Positions 21,066-32,233 of a DNA stretch of 64,000 nt are shown one piece after another. This DNA is from Diacronema lutheri (Eukaryota; Haptophyta; Pavlovophyceae; Pavlovales; Pavlovaceae), in the NCBI GenBank assembly GCA_019448385.1, contig JAGTXO010000009.1:682001-746000 (forward strand), read 5' to 3'. Under the pieces are notes generated by a model. That model was not told where the DNA came from. It saw only the letters and a list, made by a program, of their open reading frames with translations, and ran no database searches. How positions within the stretch are numbered: position 1 is the stretch's first letter; each line of letters starts with the position of its first letter. The position numbers and the translations under genes were made by a program.

Positions 21066-21319
21066 AGCGCGCCGCGCGCCGCGGCGCGCGGCGCTCGCTG
21101 CAGTCGAAGGTCATAGAATGGATATTTGATGTTGGTATCGGCTCATGGCAAGTCGCTCGCCACCGATTAGGCTCTAATCACGCCCCGAGGCGCCGCGCAC
21201 GCGCCGCGCGAGCGGCCCGCGGCACCGCGCGCACCGACCTCGGCTCATGGGATCACGGCCACGAGTCCCAAACTTCCAAGGAGAGAAAGTAAAAAGTTTA
21301 CGTATTCATACTTGACAGA
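21066..21319. other. Spacer upstream of the DUF2779-like gene
   Basis: Holds the region upstream of the broken parvulin and the promoter of the DUF2779-like gene. A small inverted repeat GATTAG-gct-CTAATC lies at 21165-21179, and an AT-rich stretch ending TACGTATTCATACTTGACAG directly precedes the ATG at 21320. No gene seen. Confidence 0.4.
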
Positions 21320-23494
21320 ATGGCGGCCGAGCGGCTTCGGCCGGCGCTTCGTCTGCTCTCGGTCGCGTGCGCGGCCTCGGCGCACGCGCCGGCGGCGGTA
21401 CGCGCCGAGGCAGGGTCGACACCGCTCTTCCACAAGGGCGTGTACGACTCCGCCGCGAAGTGCGCGCGCCTCGGCTGGTTCATCCGCAGGCGCCAGTTCG
21501 TCAAGCCGCGCAGCGCCGGCGCCGACTTTTTCGCCGAGCAGGGGCGCGCGTTCGAGCTGCACGTGCTCGCGTCGGCGGACCTCGCGCCCAACGTGGTCGA
21601 GCTTCCGGCGGGGCTATCTGCCGTCGAGGCCGCCGCCCAGACGCGCGCCGCAATGGCGGACGCGGTGCGCGAGCTGTGCGCGACGGGTGACACGAGCGCG
21701 ATCCTGCAGCCGACGTTCGTCGCCGGGCCGCTCGTCGCGCGCGCGGACGCAATTGTGCTCGCGCCGCTCGACAGCGAGGCGGCGGTGTCGGCAGCGCGCG
21801 CGGCGGCGGTGGCGGGCGACGACATCGCCCTCCTCTCCGCCGTCCGTTGGGACCTGCTTGAGATCAAGTCGGTCCTCGCGAGCAACGCGTGCGGGAAGGC
21901 GGCCGACCTCGCGTTCACGTTGCACGCGGCGCAGGCCGCGGGCACGCGCGTACGCGACGCGCTGCTCTACGCGGTCAATCCGCTTTATCGGCTGGGTACG
22001 GCCGACACCGTGCCGCTGCACGCCGCGGTTAACCTGACCGAGCAGGTGCGGCAGCTCGTCAGCGCCGTGCTCGCGCCGGACGCGGCCGCGCCATGCGACG
22101 ACGCGCCGGCCGGCGGCCGCGGCGCGACGGCCTGCGATGCGAACGCGGAATCGGACGCGGACGAGCCGAGCGGCGCGCCGTTCGTTGATCGGAGCGTCGC
22201 GCGCCTCGAGCGGCTCACCGCGCTGCCCGAGCCGGCGGGCGCCACCCCATTCCTCGGGTGCAAAGGGTGCGTAGCCGAGAGCGAGTGCGCCGGCCGCGGC
22301 GTCTCGCACCCGCTCTGGGAGTTGCCGCGCATCGGCGACAAAGCACTGAACGCGCTCGTCGCCGCCTCGTCGTCGCTCGAGATCGCGCACGCCCACCCCG
22401 ACGACGTCGCCGGCCTCACGCTCCCGCAGGCGCGCTTCTACCGCGCGGTGCTGCGCGGCGACACGGCGCCCATACTTGCCGACGCGCCCGACGATCTCCG
22501 GCGCGCGCTGCGCGCGATCGAGCTGCCGGTGCGCTACCTCGACTTCGAGGCGGCGGGCCTGCTCTTCCCGCCGCTCGACGGCCTCGCCCCCTTCGAGCCG
22601 CTCCTCACGCAATACTCCGTGCACACGCTCAGCGCGGCGCACGTCGAGCGCGCTCCGGGCGGGCTCGCAGCCGCGCTTGACGCGGCGTGCGGCGCGCTCG
22701 CGCGCTCGGCGCGCGGCGAGCACGAGGAGGTGGATCACCGCGAGTACCTCGCGGACGCGACGCGCGACTGGCGCGAGGAGTTGCTTTGCAACCTGCTGCG
22801 CGACCTGGGCGAACCGGAGACGGCGCCGGACGTCGGCGCGCGCGCGCGCGGCTCGATCGTCGTCTACTCGTCGTACGAAGGGACGCAGCTGCAGAGGCTC
22901 GCGGCCGAGTTCCCGCAGCTCGCAGAGCGGACGCTGCGCGTGCGCGCGCGGCTCGTCGACCTCGAGGTCGTCGTGCGCAAGTGCGTCTCGCACGCGCTCT
23001 TCCGCGGCAGGTCGTCGCTCAAGGTCGCGCTGCCGACGCTCGCGCCGCATCTGAGCGACAGTTACGCGCGCGACGCGATTGGCGACGGCAGCGCGGCGGC
23101 GGCCGCGTTCGCGCGGCTCGCGGCGGGCGAGCTGAGCGACGCCGAGACGGCCGCGCTGCGCGCGCAGCTGCTCGACTACTGCGCGCTCGACACGCGCGCC
23201 ATGGTCGAGCTGCACCGCGCGCTGCTCGCGCTCGCCGAGCCCGTCGAGGATAGCTCGGCGCGCGCCGGCGCGCCGCGCGGGGCGCCGGCCGCGCGCGTCG
23301 GGCCGGCCGAGGCGCTAGGGGGCGTGGCGGATGTGCCGCCCGATGCGAGCGCGGCGCCTATCGAGCGCATGCTCGTGTGCGACCTGAAGGCGGAGCTCGG
23401 CCTGCTCGGCGAGCGGCGCACGGGCACGAAGGCCGAGTTGGCCGCTCGGCTGACGGTGGCGAGGCAGCGGGCGGCTGTCGCGCGCGCCTTATAA
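21320..23494 (+). CDS. DUF2779-like protein: Fe-S PD-(D/E)XK nuclease, DEDD exonuclease and SAP domain
   Basis: 724 residues, no intron. The N-terminal half has the layout of Cas4/AddB-like Fe-S nucleases: Cys48 in AKCARLGW, an Asp in RADAIV (143), Glu181 and Lys183 in WDLLEIKS, then CxxC-x5-C at Cys314, Cys317 and Cys323. The C-terminal half follows bacterial DUF2779 (PF11074): YLDFE (Asp408, Glu410), GSIVVYSSYEGTQLQRLA, VDLEVVV (Asp547), SLKVALPTLAPHLSDSY and LLDYCALDT (Asp624), a DnaQ-like 3'-5' exonuclease set. Residues about 682-716 look like a SAP DNA-binding motif (CDLKAELGLLGERRTGTKAE). Inferred role: a DNA or RNA processing nuclease. The first 35 residues could be an organelle leader. 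I know DUF2779 from bacteria; the SAP tail suggests a gene adapted to a nucleus or organelle. Confidence 0.8.
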   Translation: MAAERLRPALRLLSVACAASAHAPAAVRAEAGSTPLFHKGVYDSAAKCARLGWFIRRRQFVKPRSAGADFFAEQGRAFELHVLASADLAPNVVELPAGLSAVEAAAQTRAAMADAVRELCATGDTSAILQPTFVAGPLVARADAIVLAPLDSEAAVSAARAAAVAGDDIALLSAVRWDLLEIKSVLASNACGKAADLAFTLHAAQAAGTRVRDALLYAVNPLYRLGTADTVPLHAAVNLTEQVRQLVSAVLAPDAAAPCDDAPAGGRGATACDANAESDADEPSGAPFVDRSVARLERLTALPEPAGATPFLGCKGCVAESECAGRGVSHPLWELPRIGDKALNALVAASSSLEIAHAHPDDVAGLTLPQARFYRAVLRGDTAPILADAPDDLRRALRAIELPVRYLDFEAAGLLFPPLDGLAPFEPLLTQYSVHTLSAAHVERAPGGLAAALDAACGALARSARGEHEEVDHREYLADATRDWREELLCNLLRDLGEPETAPDVGARARGSIVVYSSYEGTQLQRLAAEFPQLAERTLRVRARLVDLEVVVRKCVSHALFRGRSSLKVALPTLAPHLSDSYARDAIGDGSAAAAAFARLAAGELSDAETAALRAQLLDYCALDTRAMVELHRALLALAEPVEDSSARAGAPRGAPAARVGPAEALGGVADVPPDASAAPIERMLVCDLKAELGLLGERRTGTKAELAARLTVARQRAAVARAL

Positions 23495-23578: not shown

Positions 23579-26500
23579 TCACAAGCGCGGTGCCGGCGTC
23601 GGACGCACGCGCGCATACGTCTCGGCGAGCCGCGCGTTCAGCCGTGACGACCAGCCGTTGCTCATGTTCGCGACGGACTTGCTGTCGTCCACGCCCATGT
23701 CGTCCTTGTCGACGGCCGCCGGCGCGTCGCTCGTGTCGCTCAGCCGCCACAGGTGCGGGCCCTGCAGCAGCCGAGCCATCGCCGACGCGGCCTCGGCGTT
23801 GGTCGACGCGGGCGGCAGCACGGCGATCGGCTTGTCGCGCGGCGCGGCGAGGAGCGTGACGGCGAGGTGCGACGCGGCGAGGTCGGCGTGGATCGGCACG
23901 ACGCCGAGCGCCGCCATTGCCTCGCCCCACGCGGGCGAGGCGAGCAAGACCGTCTGCCGGACGGCGCGCAGGTGCGAGAGCTTGGGCGCACCCAGCATCG
24001 CCACGGCGACGGCGCGCGCCATCGCGTGCGCGAGCTCGTCGTCGTGCAATGCGTACACGACTGCGGCGCTCGTCGTATCCCGAGCGATCGCGCTCACGAA
24101 CGGCTCGAAGAGCACCGCGTCCGCGTCCGGCTCGGCGCGCACGTACCCGTTGCCCGCCGCGTGCCGGCCGTGCAACCCGTCGGGCGCGGCGCCCGAATGC
24201 TCGAGCGACGGCTGCACGCCCGCGCTACGCCCGTTCGGCGGCGCTTGGGCATGCCGGCCGCCACCGAGCACGAGCGCGGTGAAGTTGTCGGGCGTGATGT
24301 GCAGCGCGTGCCCGATGGACTGCGCGGCGGCGGACGGCCGCACGGACGACTGCTTGGCGGTGTGCGCCGGCAGCGCGCCGCTGCCGCCCTGCTGAGGCGC
24401 GCCATTGCTGCGCGTGTGGCCGTGTGCGGCCGTGGCGCTCGTCGGCTGCGGCAGGCCGCTGCTGCCATTCGTATCGGAGCGCGGGCCGAGCGCAATGGGC
24501 GCGAGGCCGAGCATGGACGGATGGAGCATTGTCGACGACGAGCGCGAGCCTGTGCGGCGAGTGGGCGGCGCGCGCGTGCGGCGTGCGGCGAGGGGCGGTC
24601 GGCGTCGCGGGCACGGCGCGGCAGAAGCGCAGCGACGCGCGGCGGCGCGGTGGCGGCGCGCGCACCGGCGACAATTGCCGTCGCGCCCTCCGCCGCGAGC
24701 GCGCCCTGCTCCACCGCGTTCGGCGAGACGGTGACGATGGGCTCGTCGACAAATGGCGGGCTGCTCTCGGCGGTGACCTGCGCCTCGTGGAAGTCGTTGC
24801 GCCGCGTGAGCAGGTCGGAAAGGTCGACCTTTGCAACGTCCTCGCGCGCCTTGAGATGCGCGCCCGCCGCGTACTCCGCAAGCCGCGCGCTCGCCGCCGC
24901 CGCGCGCGCCTCGGACGCGGCGAGGAGCTTGACGTGCCAATTCTGCGCGAGCAGCCGGCCGGCGACGGCGAGCGCGAGCGGGCTGTCGCCCACGACGAAG
25001 GCGGTGCGGTGGGACGAGCCGTGCTCCACGTCGGACGCGGCGTTGCCCTTGCCCGCCTCGCCCATGCGAAAGACGGCGCATTTAAAAAGGATCGGCCCGG
25101 CGATCTGGTTGACGAAGACGATCGCGACGATCGTCGCCTGGAAGCGCGAGCCCCAGCCGTCAAAGGAGTGCGAGATCTCGGCGGCGAGGCCGAGCGAGAC
25201 GCCCGCCTGCGTGAGGAGCGTGAGCCACATGTGCGTGTTGAAGCGCGAGAGCGCGGGCGTCGAGCCGGCGGCGTACAGGCCGATGATCGCACCGAGAGCG
25301 ATGGACGCGGCGCGGAGCACGACGATAATGAGCGCAAAGGGCAGCGACTCGACGATCGCGGGCAAGTTGAGCGTCGTGCCGACGTACGTGAAGAAGATGA
25401 GGAAGACGGGCGGGCCGGACGAGGCAAGCACCGCGTGGAAGTGGTTCAAATGCTCGGAGTAGTTGCCGCACACAAAGCCCGCGGCGATCGTCATGAGCAG
25501 CGGCTCAAAGGCGATCGTGTGCGCAAGCGAGTGCTCTGAGAAGGCCTTGAGCTCCTGAAAGCGAACAGGGCAGGGCAGGGCACAGCAGAGCAGGCCAGGG
25601 CAGGCCAGGGCAGGGCAGGGCGGTTGAGGGGGGAGAGGGTGGCAAGCGCGAGCGGCAGGCCGGCGCACGGCGCGGCGCGCGCACGTCGCACGCCACAAAG
25701 ATGGCGAGGCCGAGCGGCAGGATAAGGAAGTGCGCAATAGGCCAGCGCACGCGCATGAGGAGCATGAGCACGTAGCCAAGAATAGCGCCAACGATGATCG
25801 ACGCACCGATCCCGACGCCGACGGTGAGGCCGATCGTCGCGCCCTCGAATGGCCGATCCGCGCACGAGATCTCGGCGAGCGAGAGGGTGATGGAGAAGGC
25901 CACGAGCACAAACAGGTCGCCGAGGACGGTGATCCCGAGGGTCGAGCTCACGAAGGGGCCGTGCGCGCGCAGCTCCTTGATGACCGCGATCGCCGACGCG
26001 GGGCTGCGCGCCATCATGATACTACCCATCACGGTGGAGACGGAGACGCGGCACTGCGGCGAGAGCTCCTCAAGGTATAAAAGCACGCCTGTGCCCGGCT
26101 CCATCAGGCCGAGAGAGCCCACGACCGTGACCGCGAATGAGATGCAGCAGATGGCGGTCGTCGCAAAGACGATCCGCTTGAGCGTCTTGCGCAGCTCAGG
26201 CATGTAGAGCTCGGCGCCGGCGCTGAACGCAATGAACGCGAGCGCAAAGGCCGTGACGAGCGGCAGCCGCTCGACGTCTTCTGCGTGCAGCAACTTGAGG
26301 ACATACGGCCCCGCGACGGCGCCCACGACGAGGTACCCCGTGATGAGCGGCAGGCCGACGCGCGGGAAGAGCGGCCCCATCGCGCGCGCGGCCATCACGA
26401 TGACGAAAAAGCCCAGCCACGACACGATCACCGCGCCCGGCGGAGCCGCGTCGAGCGCATCCTCGCCTGCGTGGGCGGCGTTGGACTCTCCCGCCGTCAT
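23579..26500 (-). CDS. CPA2-family cation/proton antiporter with RCK-like C-terminal domain
   Basis: Exons 26500-25685, 25554-24666 and 24549-23579 give 891 residues. The N-terminal membrane domain (PLITGYLVVGAVAGPYVL, AFIAFSAGAELYM, SPASAIAVIKELRAHGPF, TVLGDLFVLVAF) is a Na+/H+ exchanger fold of the KefB/CPA2 type. Splicing restores FVACDELKAFSEHSLAHTI and then GTTLNLPAIVESLP. The second half holds AFVVGDSPLALAVAGRLLAQ, a Rossmann-like TrkA-N/RCK fold expected to sense nucleotides and gate the channel, followed by a low-complexity linker and another alpha/beta segment. Intron 1 (130 nt) contains CCCTG repeats; intron 2 is 116 nt. Likely exchanges K+ or Na+ for protons at an internal membrane. 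Start chosen at MTAGESN, just before the membrane domain. Confidence 0.82.
25566..25621. repeat. CCCTG-type pentamer repeat in antiporter intron 1
   Basis: On the plus strand the segment reads as variants of CAGGG (CAGGGCAGGGCAGGGCACAG, then GGCCAGGGCAGG). In the transcript it is a CCCTG-rich pyrimidine tract running up to the acceptor CGCTTTCAG. It probably serves as the polypyrimidine tract. Confidence 0.7.
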
Positions 26501-26892: not shown

Positions 26893-29800
26893 TCACGCGT
26901 CGGCGCCGTCGGCCGGCGGCCTGCTGCCCGCGCGTCCGCCGGCCGGCGCGCCGCCCGCCGGCTTGCGCACGCGGCTCCGCCGGCCGAACGAAGCCGACCG
27001 GCGCAGAATCTCGGTGCGCAGCACCTCCTCCATGCTGATGCCGATCGAGCCCGTGCCGAGCGGCCCGGGCGTCGCCAGCGCGGGCGGCGCGTCGGCCGCG
27101 CCGCCGGCCGCGCCGAGCGCGTTCGCCGCGGTCGCGCCGGCGGCGCCGGCGCCACCGCCCCGCCGCCTGCGGCCGAAGGACTGCTTGCGCTGCATGCCGC
27201 CGCCCGCCATGCCCAATGCGCCGCCCCCATGCTGCGCCGCGCCCGCGCCGCCCCGGCCCGCGCGCGCGCCAGCTTCTTCGACGCCGTCAGCGGGGCAGCG
27301 CGGCTGCAACAGCGACCGCTCGCCGCTGCCCGGCCCGTCCCAGCGCGGCCGTTCCCATGGCTGCACGAGGCGCGGCGCGCACGGCGCGAGCGCGCCGGCG
27401 CACGCGCCGTCAATTGGCGAGCTGCGCCGTTGCTCGACCCGTGCGCTGCCGTGAGTGCCGCCGGGCGCGCCCGGCGCACGGGCGGAGGCTACGGCTCGCG
27501 CGCTGCCCACCGTGGCGGTGAGCTCGGCGGCGGTGCCGTCGGGCGCACGGTCGGACAAGGGCGCACGCGCCGCGTTGCTCCGCCGCACGACGTCGCGAAG
27601 GTCGACGACGCCTCCGTCTTGCGCGCCCGGTGGCGGCGGCGGCGGCGACGAGAGCGGCGGCGGCGGTGGAGTGCCCACTTGCGGCGTGCGCCGGCCGCTC
27701 GACCGCTTGGGCGGCGTGGCGAACGGACCGGGCGCGCCGCGAAGCGCGCCGTGCGCCGCGTGCGCCGGCTGCTGGAGCTGCTGCGGCGGCAGCGTGAAGA
27801 GGATGTGGTCGAGGGATGGCGCCGCCCCGTTGGCGGGCGGCGGCGTGCGCGGTGCGCGCGACGCGCCGTGCAGCGTCGCCGCGCCAAAGACCTGCGGCTG
27901 CGGCTGCGGCTGGCGGAGCGGCTGCGCGCAGCACGCAGCGCCCGCGCCGCCACCGGCGCCGCCGTTCGGCGCCGGCGCGCGCTGGCCGCCCACGCGCCGC
28001 TCGCCGGCGCCGCGCGCGCCGCCGTGTGCGCGCGGCGGCGTGCCGACCGGCAGCGGCGAACCGTCCGCGACGGCCGTCGCCCAGCCGCCAGGCGGCGCGC
28101 TCGGCGCGCGCGCGCCGCGTTCGTCGCCTGCCGCCGCCGCCGCCGCCGCGCGCCGCCACGACGCAAGCTCGCGCGCGAGCTCGCGGCAGCGCGCCTCCGC
28201 GCCCGCCGCGCGCGCGCTCGCGTCGGCGGCTGCGTGCTCGGCGCCGAGGGATATGCGCGCCTGCGCGCGCGCGGTGCCCTCGGCGGCGGCAGCGCGCGCA
28301 AGCGCCGCGCGCTTGGCCGCCGCCTCCGCCGCGAGCTGCCGGCGCAGCTCGGCCACCTTGGTGCTCAAGCCATCGATCAGCGCCTCGGCAGCCGCGAGCG
28401 CGCGCGTGCCCGCCGCGCCGCCGCCGCCACCGCCGCCCGCCGCGCTCGGCGCGCCCGGCGCGGCGGCGGCCGCGGCGGCCGCCGCGTCCGCCGCCGCTGC
28501 GGCCGCGGCGATCGCCGCCCCAGCGCCCGCCCCGTCGTCGGCGGCGGCGGCGGCAGCGGCGGCAGCGGCCGCCGCCGCGGCGCGCTGCAGCGCGCGCGCG
28601 TGCGCCTCGGCGGCCTCGCGCGCGTGCGTCTCGGCGCTGAGCGCGCCGCGCAGCGCGGCGAGCTGCCGGTGCACGTCCGCGGCGGCCGCCAGCTCGCGCG
28701 CGCGCACCGCGCGCAGCACGCGCGCCGCACGCGCGCGGTGCGCCGCTTGCACGCGCGTTGCGGCCGCGCGCGCTGCGCGCAGGGCGCGCGCGGCGGCCAC
28801 GCGGCGCTGCGCGGCTTGCACGCGCGTCGCGGCGCGTGCTTCGCGGCGCGCGCGCAGCTCGGCGCGCGCCTGCCGGCCGCGCGTCGCGCGCTGCAGCGCG
28901 CGAGCGGCGGCGCGCGCGGCGGCGAGCGCGGCGCGCGCGGCCGCGCCGCGCGCGCTCGCCTGCACGCGCTGCGCGGCCGCGCGCGCCGCGGCGAGGCGCG
29001 CGCGCGCGGCGCGCGCGCGCGCAGCGCGCTGGCACGCGCATGCCGCCACGCCAATCCGCCGCGCGAGCACGCCCTCGAGCGCGGCGAAGGGGCGTGCGCG
29101 CAGGAAGAGGGTCGTGACGCCGACGGCGAAATCAAAGTCGCACGCGCGAGCTGCGCCGGGCACGCCGTGTCCCGCGCCGGCGGCGTCGATGCCGTCGTCG
29201 TCTTCGTCCGCGCGACCACCGCCGCCGCCGTCGACGCCGCAGTCGCCGCCGCGCGCGCGCGCGCGCGGCCCGACGAGGGGCGCGCACAGCGCACCGTCGC
29301 CGAGCAGCGCGCGCACGACCGCCACGCACGCGTCGCGTGCCGCGCCGCCCGTCGCGGCCGCGTCGGCGGCGCGCGCGGCGTCGGCCCAGCCGGGCGCGCA
29401 GCCGGCGGGCGCGAGCGGGCCGTACCGCCGGAGCGCGGCGCTGTGCGGCATCCGATGCGGGTAGGCGGCGCGACCAATCTGGACGGCATGCACGACGCCC
29501 GCCGTGCGCAGCTGCCGTCCGACGCACGCGCCGTCCCAGTGCTCGGCGCCGGCGCGGCCGTCCTCGTTGGGGCGCACGCAGCGCACGTACTGCACGTCCG
29601 TCGCGCCGACCGACGCGAGCAGCGCGGCGAGCTGCCGGCCAAACTGCGCGGCGAGCCCGGCGGCGTGCCGGCGCGCCGGTGCCAGTGGCCGGCCCGCTCG
29701 CGGCCCGTCCGCGCCGCGCGCGTCCGCACCGGGCGGCGGCGGCGCGCCGGCGGCGAGGACGGCGGCGACGATCGGGTCGGCCGTGCGCGCGCTGACGAAG

Positions 29801-32013
29801 GCGTGCAGATCGGGCCGGCCGACGTCCTTGTTCTTCTCACGCCAGCCGCTGCCGCCATACGCGACGGTCGCGGCATAGTGCCTTACGCAAAAGCCGGCGG
29901 CGGGCGTGAAGCCGTCGGCGGCGAGCGCGGCGGCCGCCGCGCCGGTCGGCGCGGGCGCGGGCGCGAGCAGCGGCTCGTCGCCGCCCGGCGCGGGCGCGCC
30001 ACCATGCGCGCCGAGTGCCTTTGCGACGAACGCGCCGTCCGAGCCGTTCTGCAGCGATGCCTCCTCACTGAGCAGCTGCAGCAGGCCGACGGGCGGCCGC
30101 TCGAAGAGCGCGATGCGCGCGGCGGCGAGCTCGTCGGTGCGCACGCGCGCCCACGGCACGCCCTCCAACTCGTACTCTGCCTGCTGCGCGAGGAGCACAT
30201 CCGCGGCGAAGAGCGCCTGCAGCTTCTCGTTGGCGTAGTTGATGAGCAGCTGCTCGAAGCCGTCGCGCCCGCCGCCAAACGTCTCAAAGCCGAAGAGGTC
30301 GAGCAGCCCGATGACCGCCACGCGCGCGCCGTCGTCGTCGCTGCCGCCGCCGCCGCCTCCGCCGCCGTCGGCCGAGCCGCGCGCCTCCGTCTCGCGCGCA
30401 CGTGCTGCCGGCGCGAGGCTCGCGTTGGCCGAGCCGAGCACGTGCGCAAAGACGCTCGCGTATATTCCTTTGGCGAGCGCACGCGCGCCGTCGGCGGCCT
30501 GCTGCGGCGAGAGGCGGAGCTCGATCGGCTCGTCGTCTGCGCCGACGCGGATCGTCCGGCGCAGCAGCTGCGAGAGAAGCGCGCGCGCGCCGCTGCACGC
30601 GCGCGTGCCCGCGGGCCGCGCCGGCTCGTCGGCCGCGCCGCCCGCCTCGAGCCAGTCGGCGAGCGCGAGCGACTCGTCCTCGCCGTCGAGCGCCGCCGCC
30701 TCGGCCTCGCCGTCGAGCGCCGCCGCCTCGGCCTCGCCGTACGCGTCGCCGCCGTCATCCGTGCCGCCGGCGGCGGCGCCGCCGCCGTTGGCACCGGCTG
30801 CGACGGCGCCGGCCGACGACGCATCCGCGACGCCGAGCAGCCGCGCCGCCGCGATGAGCGCGCGGCGGCCGTCGTCGCCGCCGAGCGTAGCGCCGTCGGC
30901 GCCGCGCGCGCGCGCGACGAAGTCGCTCGCGACGGTCGCGAGCGCGAGGACGGCACCGATGATGCCGAGCACCGCGCTCGAGCCGCGCTCGTCGAGGCCC
31001 GTCAGCGCCATCGCGCGCGCTGTGCGGCGCAGCGCGAGCGCGTCGTCGACGCCGCGCAGCTCGTACCTGCCGGAGAGCGCGAGCGACGGGTGGGCGGCCG
31101 GGTCTGCGCGCAACCCGACGGCGCCGTCGGCGCGCGAGAAGAGGCGGGCGAGCGTCGCGCGCAGCGCCACGCCCACGCGTGAATCCATGCCGTCATCCGC
31201 GCACTCGTTTTCGTCGACAATGCCGCCGCCGCCACCGCCGTCGTCGCCGCCAGGGCCGGCGACCGGTGCGGTGTCGCGCGCGGCCGGCGCGCCAGCGCAC
31301 GCGCCGTCGCGCTCGGCGAGCGTGCGGCGGCCGCCGGCGAGGAGCTGGTAGAAGATGTGAAAGGAGCGCTCGTCTGGGCCCACCGCGACGACACGGCTGC
31401 GCTCGAGCAGGAAGACGCGCACCTCCGCGGAGACGAGCGCGCACGCGTGCGCGCGCCGGCCGAACCGGAGCGCGACGTGTTTGCCGAAGCGGCTCGAGTT
31501 GTCGTTGCGCAGCGTGCGCGCGTTGCCAAAGGCCTCGAGCAGCGGGTTGGTCGCGGCAATTGCCGCCGCAATCGCGTGCGCCGCGCCCGCGCCCGCGCCG
31601 CTCGCGCGCGCGAGGAAGGCGATCGTCAGCTTGAGCGTCTCCGTCTTGCCCGCGCCCGACTCGCCCGAGATGAGGATCGACTGGTCGGCTGGAAGCTCGT
31701 CCGCGTCGGTGCCGGCGTGAGCAAACAAGCGCAGCGCCGCCTTGCGGTACGCGCGCTCCGCGATTGCGTACACGTGCGGCGGCAGCGTCTCGTCGCCGGG
31801 CGCAGCCGCCGCGCCCGCCGCGCAGTATCGGCGCGCCGCGTCGGCGCCATAGAGGCCGGCGGACACCTCCCACGAGAAAGGGTTGGCAAAAAGGACGACG
31901 CCCGGGCAAACGTCCGTGTACAGCGCGCCTGCGGCGAAGCGCTCGCGCACCGCCGCGACGAGCGATTCCTCGTCCGCGCTCGCCAGCGATGCGATCGGCC
32001 GGTCCCGCGCCAT
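26893..32013 (-). CDS. Myosin heavy chain, unconventional
   Basis: 1706 residues from the Met at 32013, no intron. Motor motifs are complete: P-loop GESGAGKT at 117-124, switch I NDNSSRFGK at 170-178, and switch II with DLFGFETFGG. The actin-binding half has HYAATVAYGGSGW and YVRCVRPNEDG. The motor is widened by Ala/Gly/Asp-rich loops. After the converter come several degenerate IQ motifs ([20 protein letters not shown], then RVQASARGAA and TRVQAAHRARAAR) for light chains or calmodulin, a coiled coil, and a long low-complexity tail with FGRR repeats near the end. An actin motor for transport or motility; class not assignable by eye. The frame is open to 32148, so an upstream start adding 45 residues is possible. 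Confidence 0.9.
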   Translation of the reverse strand: MARDRPIASLASADEESLVAAVRERFAAGALYTDVCPGVVLFANPFSWEVSAGLYGADAARRYCAAGAAAAPGDETLPPHVYAIAERAYRKAALRLFAHAGTDADELPADQSILISGESGAGKTETLKLTIAFLARASGAGAGAAHAIAAAIAATNPLLEAFGNARTLRNDNSSRFGKHVALRFGRRAHACALVSAEVRVFLLERSRVVAVGPDERSFHIFYQLLAGGRRTLAERDGACAGAPAARDTAPVAGPGGDDGGGGGGIVDENECADDGMDSRVGVALRATLARLFSRADGAVGLRADPAAHPSLALSGRYELRGVDDALALRRTARAMALTGLDERGSSAVLGIIGAVLALATVASDFVARARGADGATLGGDDGRRALIAAARLLGVADASSAGAVAAGANGGGAAAGGTDDGGDAYGEAEAAALDGEAEAAALDGEDESLALADWLEAGGAADEPARPAGTRACSGARALLSQLLRRTIRVGADDEPIELRLSPQQAADGARALAKGIYASVFAHVLGSANASLAPAARARETEARGSADGGGGGGGGSDDDGARVAVIGLLDLFGFETFGGGRDGFEQLLINYANEKLQALFAADVLLAQQAEYELEGVPWARVRTDELAAARIALFERPPVGLLQLLSEEASLQNGSDGAFVAKALGAHGGAPAPGGDEPLLAPAPAPTGAAAAALAADGFTPAAGFCVRHYAATVAYGGSGWREKNKDVGRPDLHAFVSARTADPIVAAVLAAGAPPPPGADARGADGPRAGRPLAPARRHAAGLAAQFGRQLAALLASVGATDVQYVRCVRPNEDGRAGAEHWDGACVGRQLRTAGVVHAVQIGRAAYPHRMPHSAALRRYGPLAPAGCAPGWADAARAADAAATGGAARDACVAVVRALLGDGALCAPLVGPRARARGGDCGVDGGGGGRADEDDDGIDAAGAGHGVPGAARACDFDFAVGVTTLFLRARPFAALEGVLARRIGVAACACQRAARARAARARLAAARAAAQRVQASARGAAARAALAAARAAARALQRATRGRQARAELRARREARAATRVQAAQRRVAAARALRAARAAATRVQAAHRARAARVLRAVRARELAAAADVHRQLAALRGALSAETHAREAAEAHARALQRAAAAAAAAAAAAAADDGAGAGAAIAAAAAAADAAAAAAAAAPGAPSAAGGGGGGGAAGTRALAAAEALIDGLSTKVAELRRQLAAEAAAKRAALARAAAAEGTARAQARISLGAEHAAADASARAAGAEARCRELARELASWRRAAAAAAAGDERGARAPSAPPGGWATAVADGSPLPVGTPPRAHGGARGAGERRVGGQRAPAPNGGAGGGAGAACCAQPLRQPQPQPQVFGAATLHGASRAPRTPPPANGAAPSLDHILFTLPPQQLQQPAHAAHGALRGAPGPFATPPKRSSGRRTPQVGTPPPPPLSSPPPPPPGAQDGGVVDLRDVVRRSNAARAPLSDRAPDGTAAELTATVGSARAVASARAPGAPGGTHGSARVEQRRSSPIDGACAGALAPCAPRLVQPWERPRWDGPGSGERSLLQPRCPADGVEEAGARAGRGGAGAAQHGGGALGMAGGGMQRKQSFGRRRRGGGAGAAGATAANALGAAGGAADAPPALATPGPLGTGSIGISMEEVLRTEILRRSASFGRRSRVRKPAGGAPAGGRAGSRPPADGADA

Positions 32014-32233
32014 GTTTTTAAAAAGTTCATCGTCGGTCAGGCGACTCCGAGAACAGAAGGGAGAAGACACGACCGTGTCGATCGAAAAATCTCCCGCGTT
32101 TCGAAAGGCGCGCGGTCTCGCCGGCGCGCAAGGCGGGGCCGCGCGCAATCCGCGGCGAGTGGCGCGGCGCGCAGCCGCGCGCGCGCACGACGCCTCCGTA
32201 GGCTCGCTCCGCGCCGCGCCGCGCCGCGCCGCA

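Follow-up and report, generated by a model that had tools for sequence, protein, structure and literature searches.

A DUF2779 double-nuclease protein with a SAP-like tail in pavlovophyte algae: probable bacterial origin and a tentative role at organelle DNA ends

In the classification of Majorek et al. (2014), DUF2779 is family F.17 of the RNase H-like 3'-5' exonucleases, and its proteins also carry a DUF83 domain resembling PD-(D/E)XK nucleases (PMC3985635). Disruption of one member, Mbov_0804 of Mycoplasma bovis, has been reported: the transposon mutant grew like its parent alone and more poorly beside host cells, a phenotype which names no substrate (PMC7373297). Here we describe a DUF2779 protein from the alga Diacronema lutheri. 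A first-pass annotation of the locus had offered it as a candidate for an undescribed system. This part of the claim does not stand, because the two-domain layout was already described in 2014 and the two-headed core is therefore of a known kind (Majorek et al., 2014). What is new is a eukaryotic variant of a known bacterial nuclease family, with a SAP tail and possible import into an organelle. Broader topic searches of the literature gave no title on this algal protein among the matches listed, and no literature pairing TM0106 with a nuclease was found.

The nuclear assembly of D. lutheri NIVA-4/92 comprises 43.503 Mb in 103 contigs, with 73.25% GC (PMC8379373). The window analysed here is one stretch of 64,000 nucleotides from this species, in whose ORF list an intronless gene at 21320..23494 (plus strand, stop codon included) encodes a 724-residue DUF2779 protein. 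That this is one intronless gene, as first proposed, is borne out on several counts. An in-frame stop (21290-21292) lies 30 bases upstream of the ATG, and GC3 is 0.92, close to the 0.88-0.90 of three ORFs nearby. Among 7,995 candidates scored in a search of 5.8 billion proteins, full-length homologues had 53, 53, 46 and 42% identity; four such homologues exclude a chance ORF. The absence of introns is ordinary, since single-exon genes make up 45% of the genes reported for D. lutheri (PMC8379373). Across the 43.5-Mb genome there was only one match to PF11074 by profile search, and only one to the gene's own sequence. A near-identical protein on other contigs, P0001, differs solely by R648L, probably a strain or allele difference; codon 648 (23261-23263) reads Arg in the window and Leu in P0001. 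Inside the gene, on the minus strand, lies a 533-residue antisense ORF (21614-23215) which is a by-product of 75% GC, and because it overlaps the DUF2779 gene, ORF length alone proves no gene in the window. Nearby genes include those for a WD40 protein and a myosin, the latter at 26893-32148 on the minus strand (Myosin_head E 4e-112, open frame of 1,751 codons). An ORF at 24094-25911 (minus strand) resembles a membrane transporter by reading; in the frame tested, Pfam found nothing at E up to 0.001.

With its high GC and lack of introns the gene looks like a bacterial one, as would be the case if the locus were bacterial contamination or an assembly artefact. We consider this extremely improbable. 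The contig, of at least 0.74 Mb, also bears the WD40 and myosin genes, GC3 is near that of host genes, and, as noted above, nearly half of the host's genes have a single exon. SAP-bearing homologues occur in Pavlovales sp. CCMP2436, where the full-length homologue is on a 155-kb contig, and in three further sequences. Contamination, which the first-pass annotation had itself raised, thus shows no sign here and is refuted by the homologues, unless all of them are contaminants. This is a genuine gene, conserved among the pavlovophyte algae; of the proteins that we count as algal, P0002, P0004 and P0005 were assigned to pavlovophytes by tree and architecture.

PF11074 (DUF2779) matches residues 406-566 with E 5.4e-21 and 75.6 bits, over the Pfam cut-off of 23.3, which confirms the family proposed earlier. 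Neither Exo5 (PF09810) nor Dna2 (PF08696) matched in the algal protein at E up to 1, in searches whose filters drop most weak matches, and the UU173 family (NF045869) gave 11.6 bits, short of the NCBI cut-off of 225. All features of the protein are on the plus strand. The first head is a PD-(D/E)XK nuclease domain, residues 37-361 (21428..22402), with Asp143, Glu181 and Lys183. By alignment, the codon for Cys48, first cysteine of a predicted Fe-S site, is at 21461..21463, and the last three cysteines of this site, Cys314-x2-Cys317-x5-Cys323, are encoded at 22259..22288. Between these lies a low-confidence insertion, residues 259-285 (22094..22174), which differs among the aligned algal proteins and has pLDDT <50 in both structure models. 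The second head is an RNase H-like 3'-5' exonuclease domain, residues 398-640 (22511..23239), with Asp408, Glu410, Glu520, Tyr620 and Asp624. After it comes a linker, residues 641-683 (23240..23368), which is predicted to be poorly ordered.

The whole-protein AF2 model was built on nine sequences and has pLDDT <50 at residues 1-62, 252-355 and 644-679, the last of these within the linker. Together with comparison to solved structures, AF2 modelling gives a RecB/Cas4-group PD-(D/E)XK fold in the first head and an RNase H-like exonuclease fold in the second, so that both nuclease folds of the original reading are predicted. The fold of the first head is Cas4-like, and MGME1, Dna2 and Exo5 are among its structural relatives. 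For the second head VIA-align ranks DNA polymerase proofreading domains highest. Searched with Foldseek by itself, neither AF2 model had a match at E <0.001.

Alongside TREX1/2, 3'hExo is among the Foldseek rows, and some RNase H-like exonucleases are RNases. The protein could accordingly process RNA or RNA-DNA hybrids, its RNase H-like head trimming RNA 3' ends or hybrids while the first head binds. This is quite improbable in our judgement, given that proofreading domains of DNA polymerases head the VIA-align matches for the second head. The first head is also unlikely to serve for binding only, because the D/E/K residues of its active site persist in 201 of the 208 rows of our alignment (5 algal and 203 prokaryotic rows, including near-duplicates and four partial loci).

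The same alignment bears on the other predicted catalytic residues. Cys48, Cys314, Cys317 and Cys323, together with Asp143, Glu181, Lys183, Asp408, Glu410, Asp547 and Asp624, are present in all five algal proteins. This agrees with the Fe-S PD-(D/E)XK layout first described for the locus, and with the impression that both active sites are intact, the catalytic residues being conserved in nearly all of the 208 rows. All four cysteines are kept in 186 rows; the Cys48 column has Cys in 183 of the 203 prokaryotic rows, a gap in the other 20 and another residue in none. We infer that these cysteines hold a 4Fe-4S cluster. In the second head Asp408, Glu410, Glu520, Tyr620 and Asp624 are jointly kept in 207 of the 208 rows, the exception being the partial locus L016.

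Of the DEDD residues first named for this head, Asp408, Glu410 and Asp624 are conserved; Asp547 is less convincing. Its column has Asn in 24 of the 208 rows, all prokaryotic (23 proteins found with P0006, and locus L016), and this residue is unlikely to be the Exo II acid. In the exonuclease topology the Exo II acid sits after the fourth strand. Glu520 is Glu in all 208 rows and opens the helix after the fourth strand of the exonuclease domain in the AF2 model, and because of this invariance and position we favour it as the probable Exo II acid, in place of the usual Asp. Comparison of the DUF2779 exonuclease with a Pol delta ORF of the D. lutheri genome and with RNase_H_2 proteins (hhalign) recovered Exo III. 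However, by hhalign and joint MAFFT the Exo II region of RNase_H_2 falls near residues 546-560, contrary to the placement at Glu520.

The C-terminal SAP domain of the first-pass annotation is supported as a match shared by the algal proteins. SAP (PF02037) matches residues 684-712 (23369..23455) at E 9.4e-4 with 19.2 bits, below the Pfam cut-off of 23.9; three of the four algal homologues are above it (P0002 25.9, P0003 33.2, P0005 30.5) and P0004 is below (16.1). At E up to 0.01 SAP was found in 5 of the 87 DUF2779 members scanned, and these are the five algal proteins; none of the 82 prokaryotic members had it. A family profile gave two weak matches to solved SAP domains, E 0.14 and 0.63, at the expected place.

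SAP domains are best known in nuclear proteins, and both of the solved domains so weakly matched belong to what we take to be nuclear-type proteins. Dna2 and Exo5, to which the first head is structurally related, act in the nucleus. The algal protein might therefore be a nuclear nuclease of DNA repair or recombination, in which SAP docks on chromatin, the heads resect or trim ends and the N-terminal extension has no part in targeting. A six-frame search, in which intron-split genes can be missed, found one Dna2 match and no Exo5 match in the D. lutheri genome. Replacement of Exo5 is thus conceivable, while Dna2 is already represented. Against a nuclear role also stand the acid-poor extensions of the five algal proteins, none of which (0/5) has a simple nuclear-localisation pattern. 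We regard a nuclear role as unlikely, if less so than RNA processing. Nor does a SAP domain imply the nucleus, because the SAP protein pTAC3 is located in the chloroplast nucleoid (PMC4080259).

The N-terminal extension, residues 1-36 (21320..21427), is defined by its composition and by comparison with the prokaryotic proteins. In the five algal proteins 27-44 residues precede the core, with 0-6% acidic residues against 12-13% in the rest of the protein. At the same place 123 prokaryotic proteins have a median of 4 residues, and only 8 of them have 25-64. The second Met of the algal protein is residue 112, past Cys48, so the first ATG is the sole ATG start that retains this predicted Fe-S cysteine. 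The extension shows moderate hydropathy and a moderate moment, and that of P0005 has two basic residues only. Judged from these sequence features, the extension is slightly more likely than not to be an organelle presequence, mitochondrial or plastid.

We favour the explanation that this nuclear gene encodes an exonuclease of DNA ends, bacterial in origin, which carries two active sites per chain and works in an organelle. We advance this whole statement tentatively; the passage from fold to activity, polarity, organelle and role is by inference. The N-terminal extension would direct the enzyme into the organelle, where it would erode or process broken or linear DNA. There the first head may trim or clip 5' single-stranded ends, or both kinds of end, and the second head would remove the 3' strand, with SAP keeping the enzyme on the duplex next to the end. 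MGME1, the helicase TWNK and the POLG 3'-5' exonuclease are reported to clear linear human mitochondrial DNA (PMC5928156). One algal chain would then combine both kinds of activity, as MGME1 and the POLG exonuclease jointly do in human mitochondria. By this analogy the removal of linear organelle DNA could be the main role, which we rate as rather doubtful. More speculative, and in our view unlikely, is that a single imported two-strand enzyme has replaced or supplemented separate organelle exonucleases as a helicase-free eraser of linear DNA, perhaps descended from a bacterial nuclease of defence. Here a Cas4/MGME1-like head would work on one strand and a proofreading-like head, with its Glu as Exo II acid, on the other, while SAP would hold the duplex.

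The D. lutheri genome also has family A polymerase matches at three places in the six-frame search, and a separate RecB-type nuclease of 516 residues (L090:931-2481, on contig C8; PDDEXK_1 E 1.5e-33). The latter was the sole PF12705 match found in this genome, and its N-terminus, judged by eye, resembles an organelle address tag. Because of this other RecB-type nuclease and the family A polymerase matches, the role of the algal DUF2779 protein may be redundant.

The bacterial relatives may point to a different function. We compared 80 prokaryotic loci, the best 80 of 221 confirmed stretches from a scan of named genomes, one of which (L026) is archaeal. Near their DUF2779 genes are 17 shared ORF families. 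By their coordinates, 8 of these are antisense shadows over the DUF2779 gene itself, and 6 form one block of NDK, DHH and FKBP genes in the Bacteroidota loci L061, L063, L067, L070, L072 and L082. The other 3 comprise WYL/WCX regulators, integrases and short-chain dehydrogenases. In raw counts, 5 of the 80 loci have a WYL regulator no more than about 4 kb from the DUF2779 gene, and 4 have integrase genes at up to about 6 kb.

Several genes of defence type adjoin a DUF2779 gene on the same strand. These are SIR2 genes in L005 (3990-5114) and L015 (7380-8579), both recognised by Pfam/PADLOC, WYL/WCX regulators in L038 (4889-5914) and L056 (4822-5865), an IetA-like ATPase in L040 (4212-5882), a type I restriction gene in L049 (7518-9956) and GmrSD in L060 (4047-5891). 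PADLOC was run on 52 neighbours, namely 51 of the 60 same-strand neighbours within 200 bases and the WYL gene which meets DUF2779 in L038; the 9 left out overlap far, are partial, are spare for a represented locus or lie beside partial genes. These 52 matched 78 PADLOC families, and at E up to 1e-10 the matches listed include SIR2 (2), WYL (2), type I restriction (1), HEC-05 (1) and MzaE (1). Pfam was run on 26 of the 52, chosen by eye. Ordinary neighbours were seen too, such as pyrophosphatase, nitroreductase, PHP, NDK and FKBP.

The algal protein may thus be a nuclease from bacterial defence, kept against viral or other foreign DNA. Besides these neighbours and the Cas4-like fold of the first head, Cas4 profiles in PADLOC match 2 of the 5 bacterial relatives tested (best E 2.4e-7), and occurrence is patchy, with none in 14 control genomes. 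However, the neighbours were chosen by position and partly by eye and many of them are ordinary, so that a defence role of the bacterial family is a possible lead from raw neighbour counts. PADLOC matches at E up to 0.01 are absent for the algal-type P0001 and P0003, and the algal gene is single-copy, sits near WD40 and myosin genes and may have gained a presequence. For the alga a defence function seems to us improbable, a little more so than a nuclear one. On our evidence the N-terminal extension leans towards the organelle role, while the defence-type neighbours in bacteria keep the defence idea alive.

Protein and profile searches with the algal sequences, each with about 8,000 candidates scored, returned the same nine proteins, five of algal and four of bacterial type, the latter of 473-495 residues. 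The nearest bacterial-type protein, P0006, gave 2,384 relatives when used as query, and among the matches listed all four assigned organisms are Acidobacteria. Since the algal queries found 9 proteins where one bacterial query found 2,384, the apparent absence from other eukaryotes carries little weight.

In a tree of 43 hand-chosen rows, drawn, as in the larger tree, by similarity to P0006 and with odd letter composition flagged in both (algal rows included), the five algal proteins group together as a clade (100/100) on a long stem (1.42), within a 98/94 set that also contains Gemmatimonadota, Anaerolineae and one further sequence. A quick tree of 89 rows (5 algal proteins, 8 other proteins and 76 of 82 loci; L001 and L002, the window itself, and the partial loci L016, L028, L035 and L071 are left out) recovers the algal clade (100) and the same broad grouping. 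We read this most readily as a single ancient transfer out of bacteria that predates the divergence of the sampled pavlovophytes, in line with the transfer suggested at the outset. The architecture and bacterial origin given here we hold with high confidence. A viral origin was considered and rejected: none of the 26 pattern matches of the algal profile to viral contigs was confirmed, 3 of the 31 obtained with the mixed profile A2 were, and 6 of 50,697 phage records match, each over 14% of the query.

The algae have retained both active sites over pavlovophyte divergence and added a probable DNA-binding tail and a possible address tag. Because both sites were kept and these parts were gained, the double-nuclease core is likely to be useful outside bacteria and to act on DNA. 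The algal protein therefore offers a testable handle on the whole DUF2779 family, which is numerous in bacteria, and bears on how haptophytes deal with DNA ends.

Among known systems, the RecB-family proteins of COG2251 / PF13482 (F.13) also combine DUF83 (Cas4-like) and RNase H-like domains, and unlike the algal protein they often bear AAA domains (Majorek et al., 2014; PMC3985635). PF13482 is a separate Pfam family, with weak matches in 24 of the 87 DUF2779 members, and six PF13482 proteins that we aligned have Asp in the Exo II motif. MGME1 has the same fold as the first head; to our knowledge it lacks a SAP domain, a four-Cys site and a second nuclease domain, and we know of no polymerase-type exonuclease attached to Cas4, AddB, Dna2 or Exo5. 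The POLG exonuclease falls in the broad superfamily of the second head. The proofreading domains of family B DNA polymerases have an Exo II Asp where the algal protein probably has Glu520, and they are part of a polymerase, whereas the algal exonuclease domain is not. Closest are the bacterial DUF2779 proteins, which have the two nuclease domains in the same order, with the same catalytic residues and four cysteines. They are mostly of about 470-515 residues, compared with 724 in the alga, usually lack the N-terminal extension, and differ from all five algal proteins in the SAP tail.
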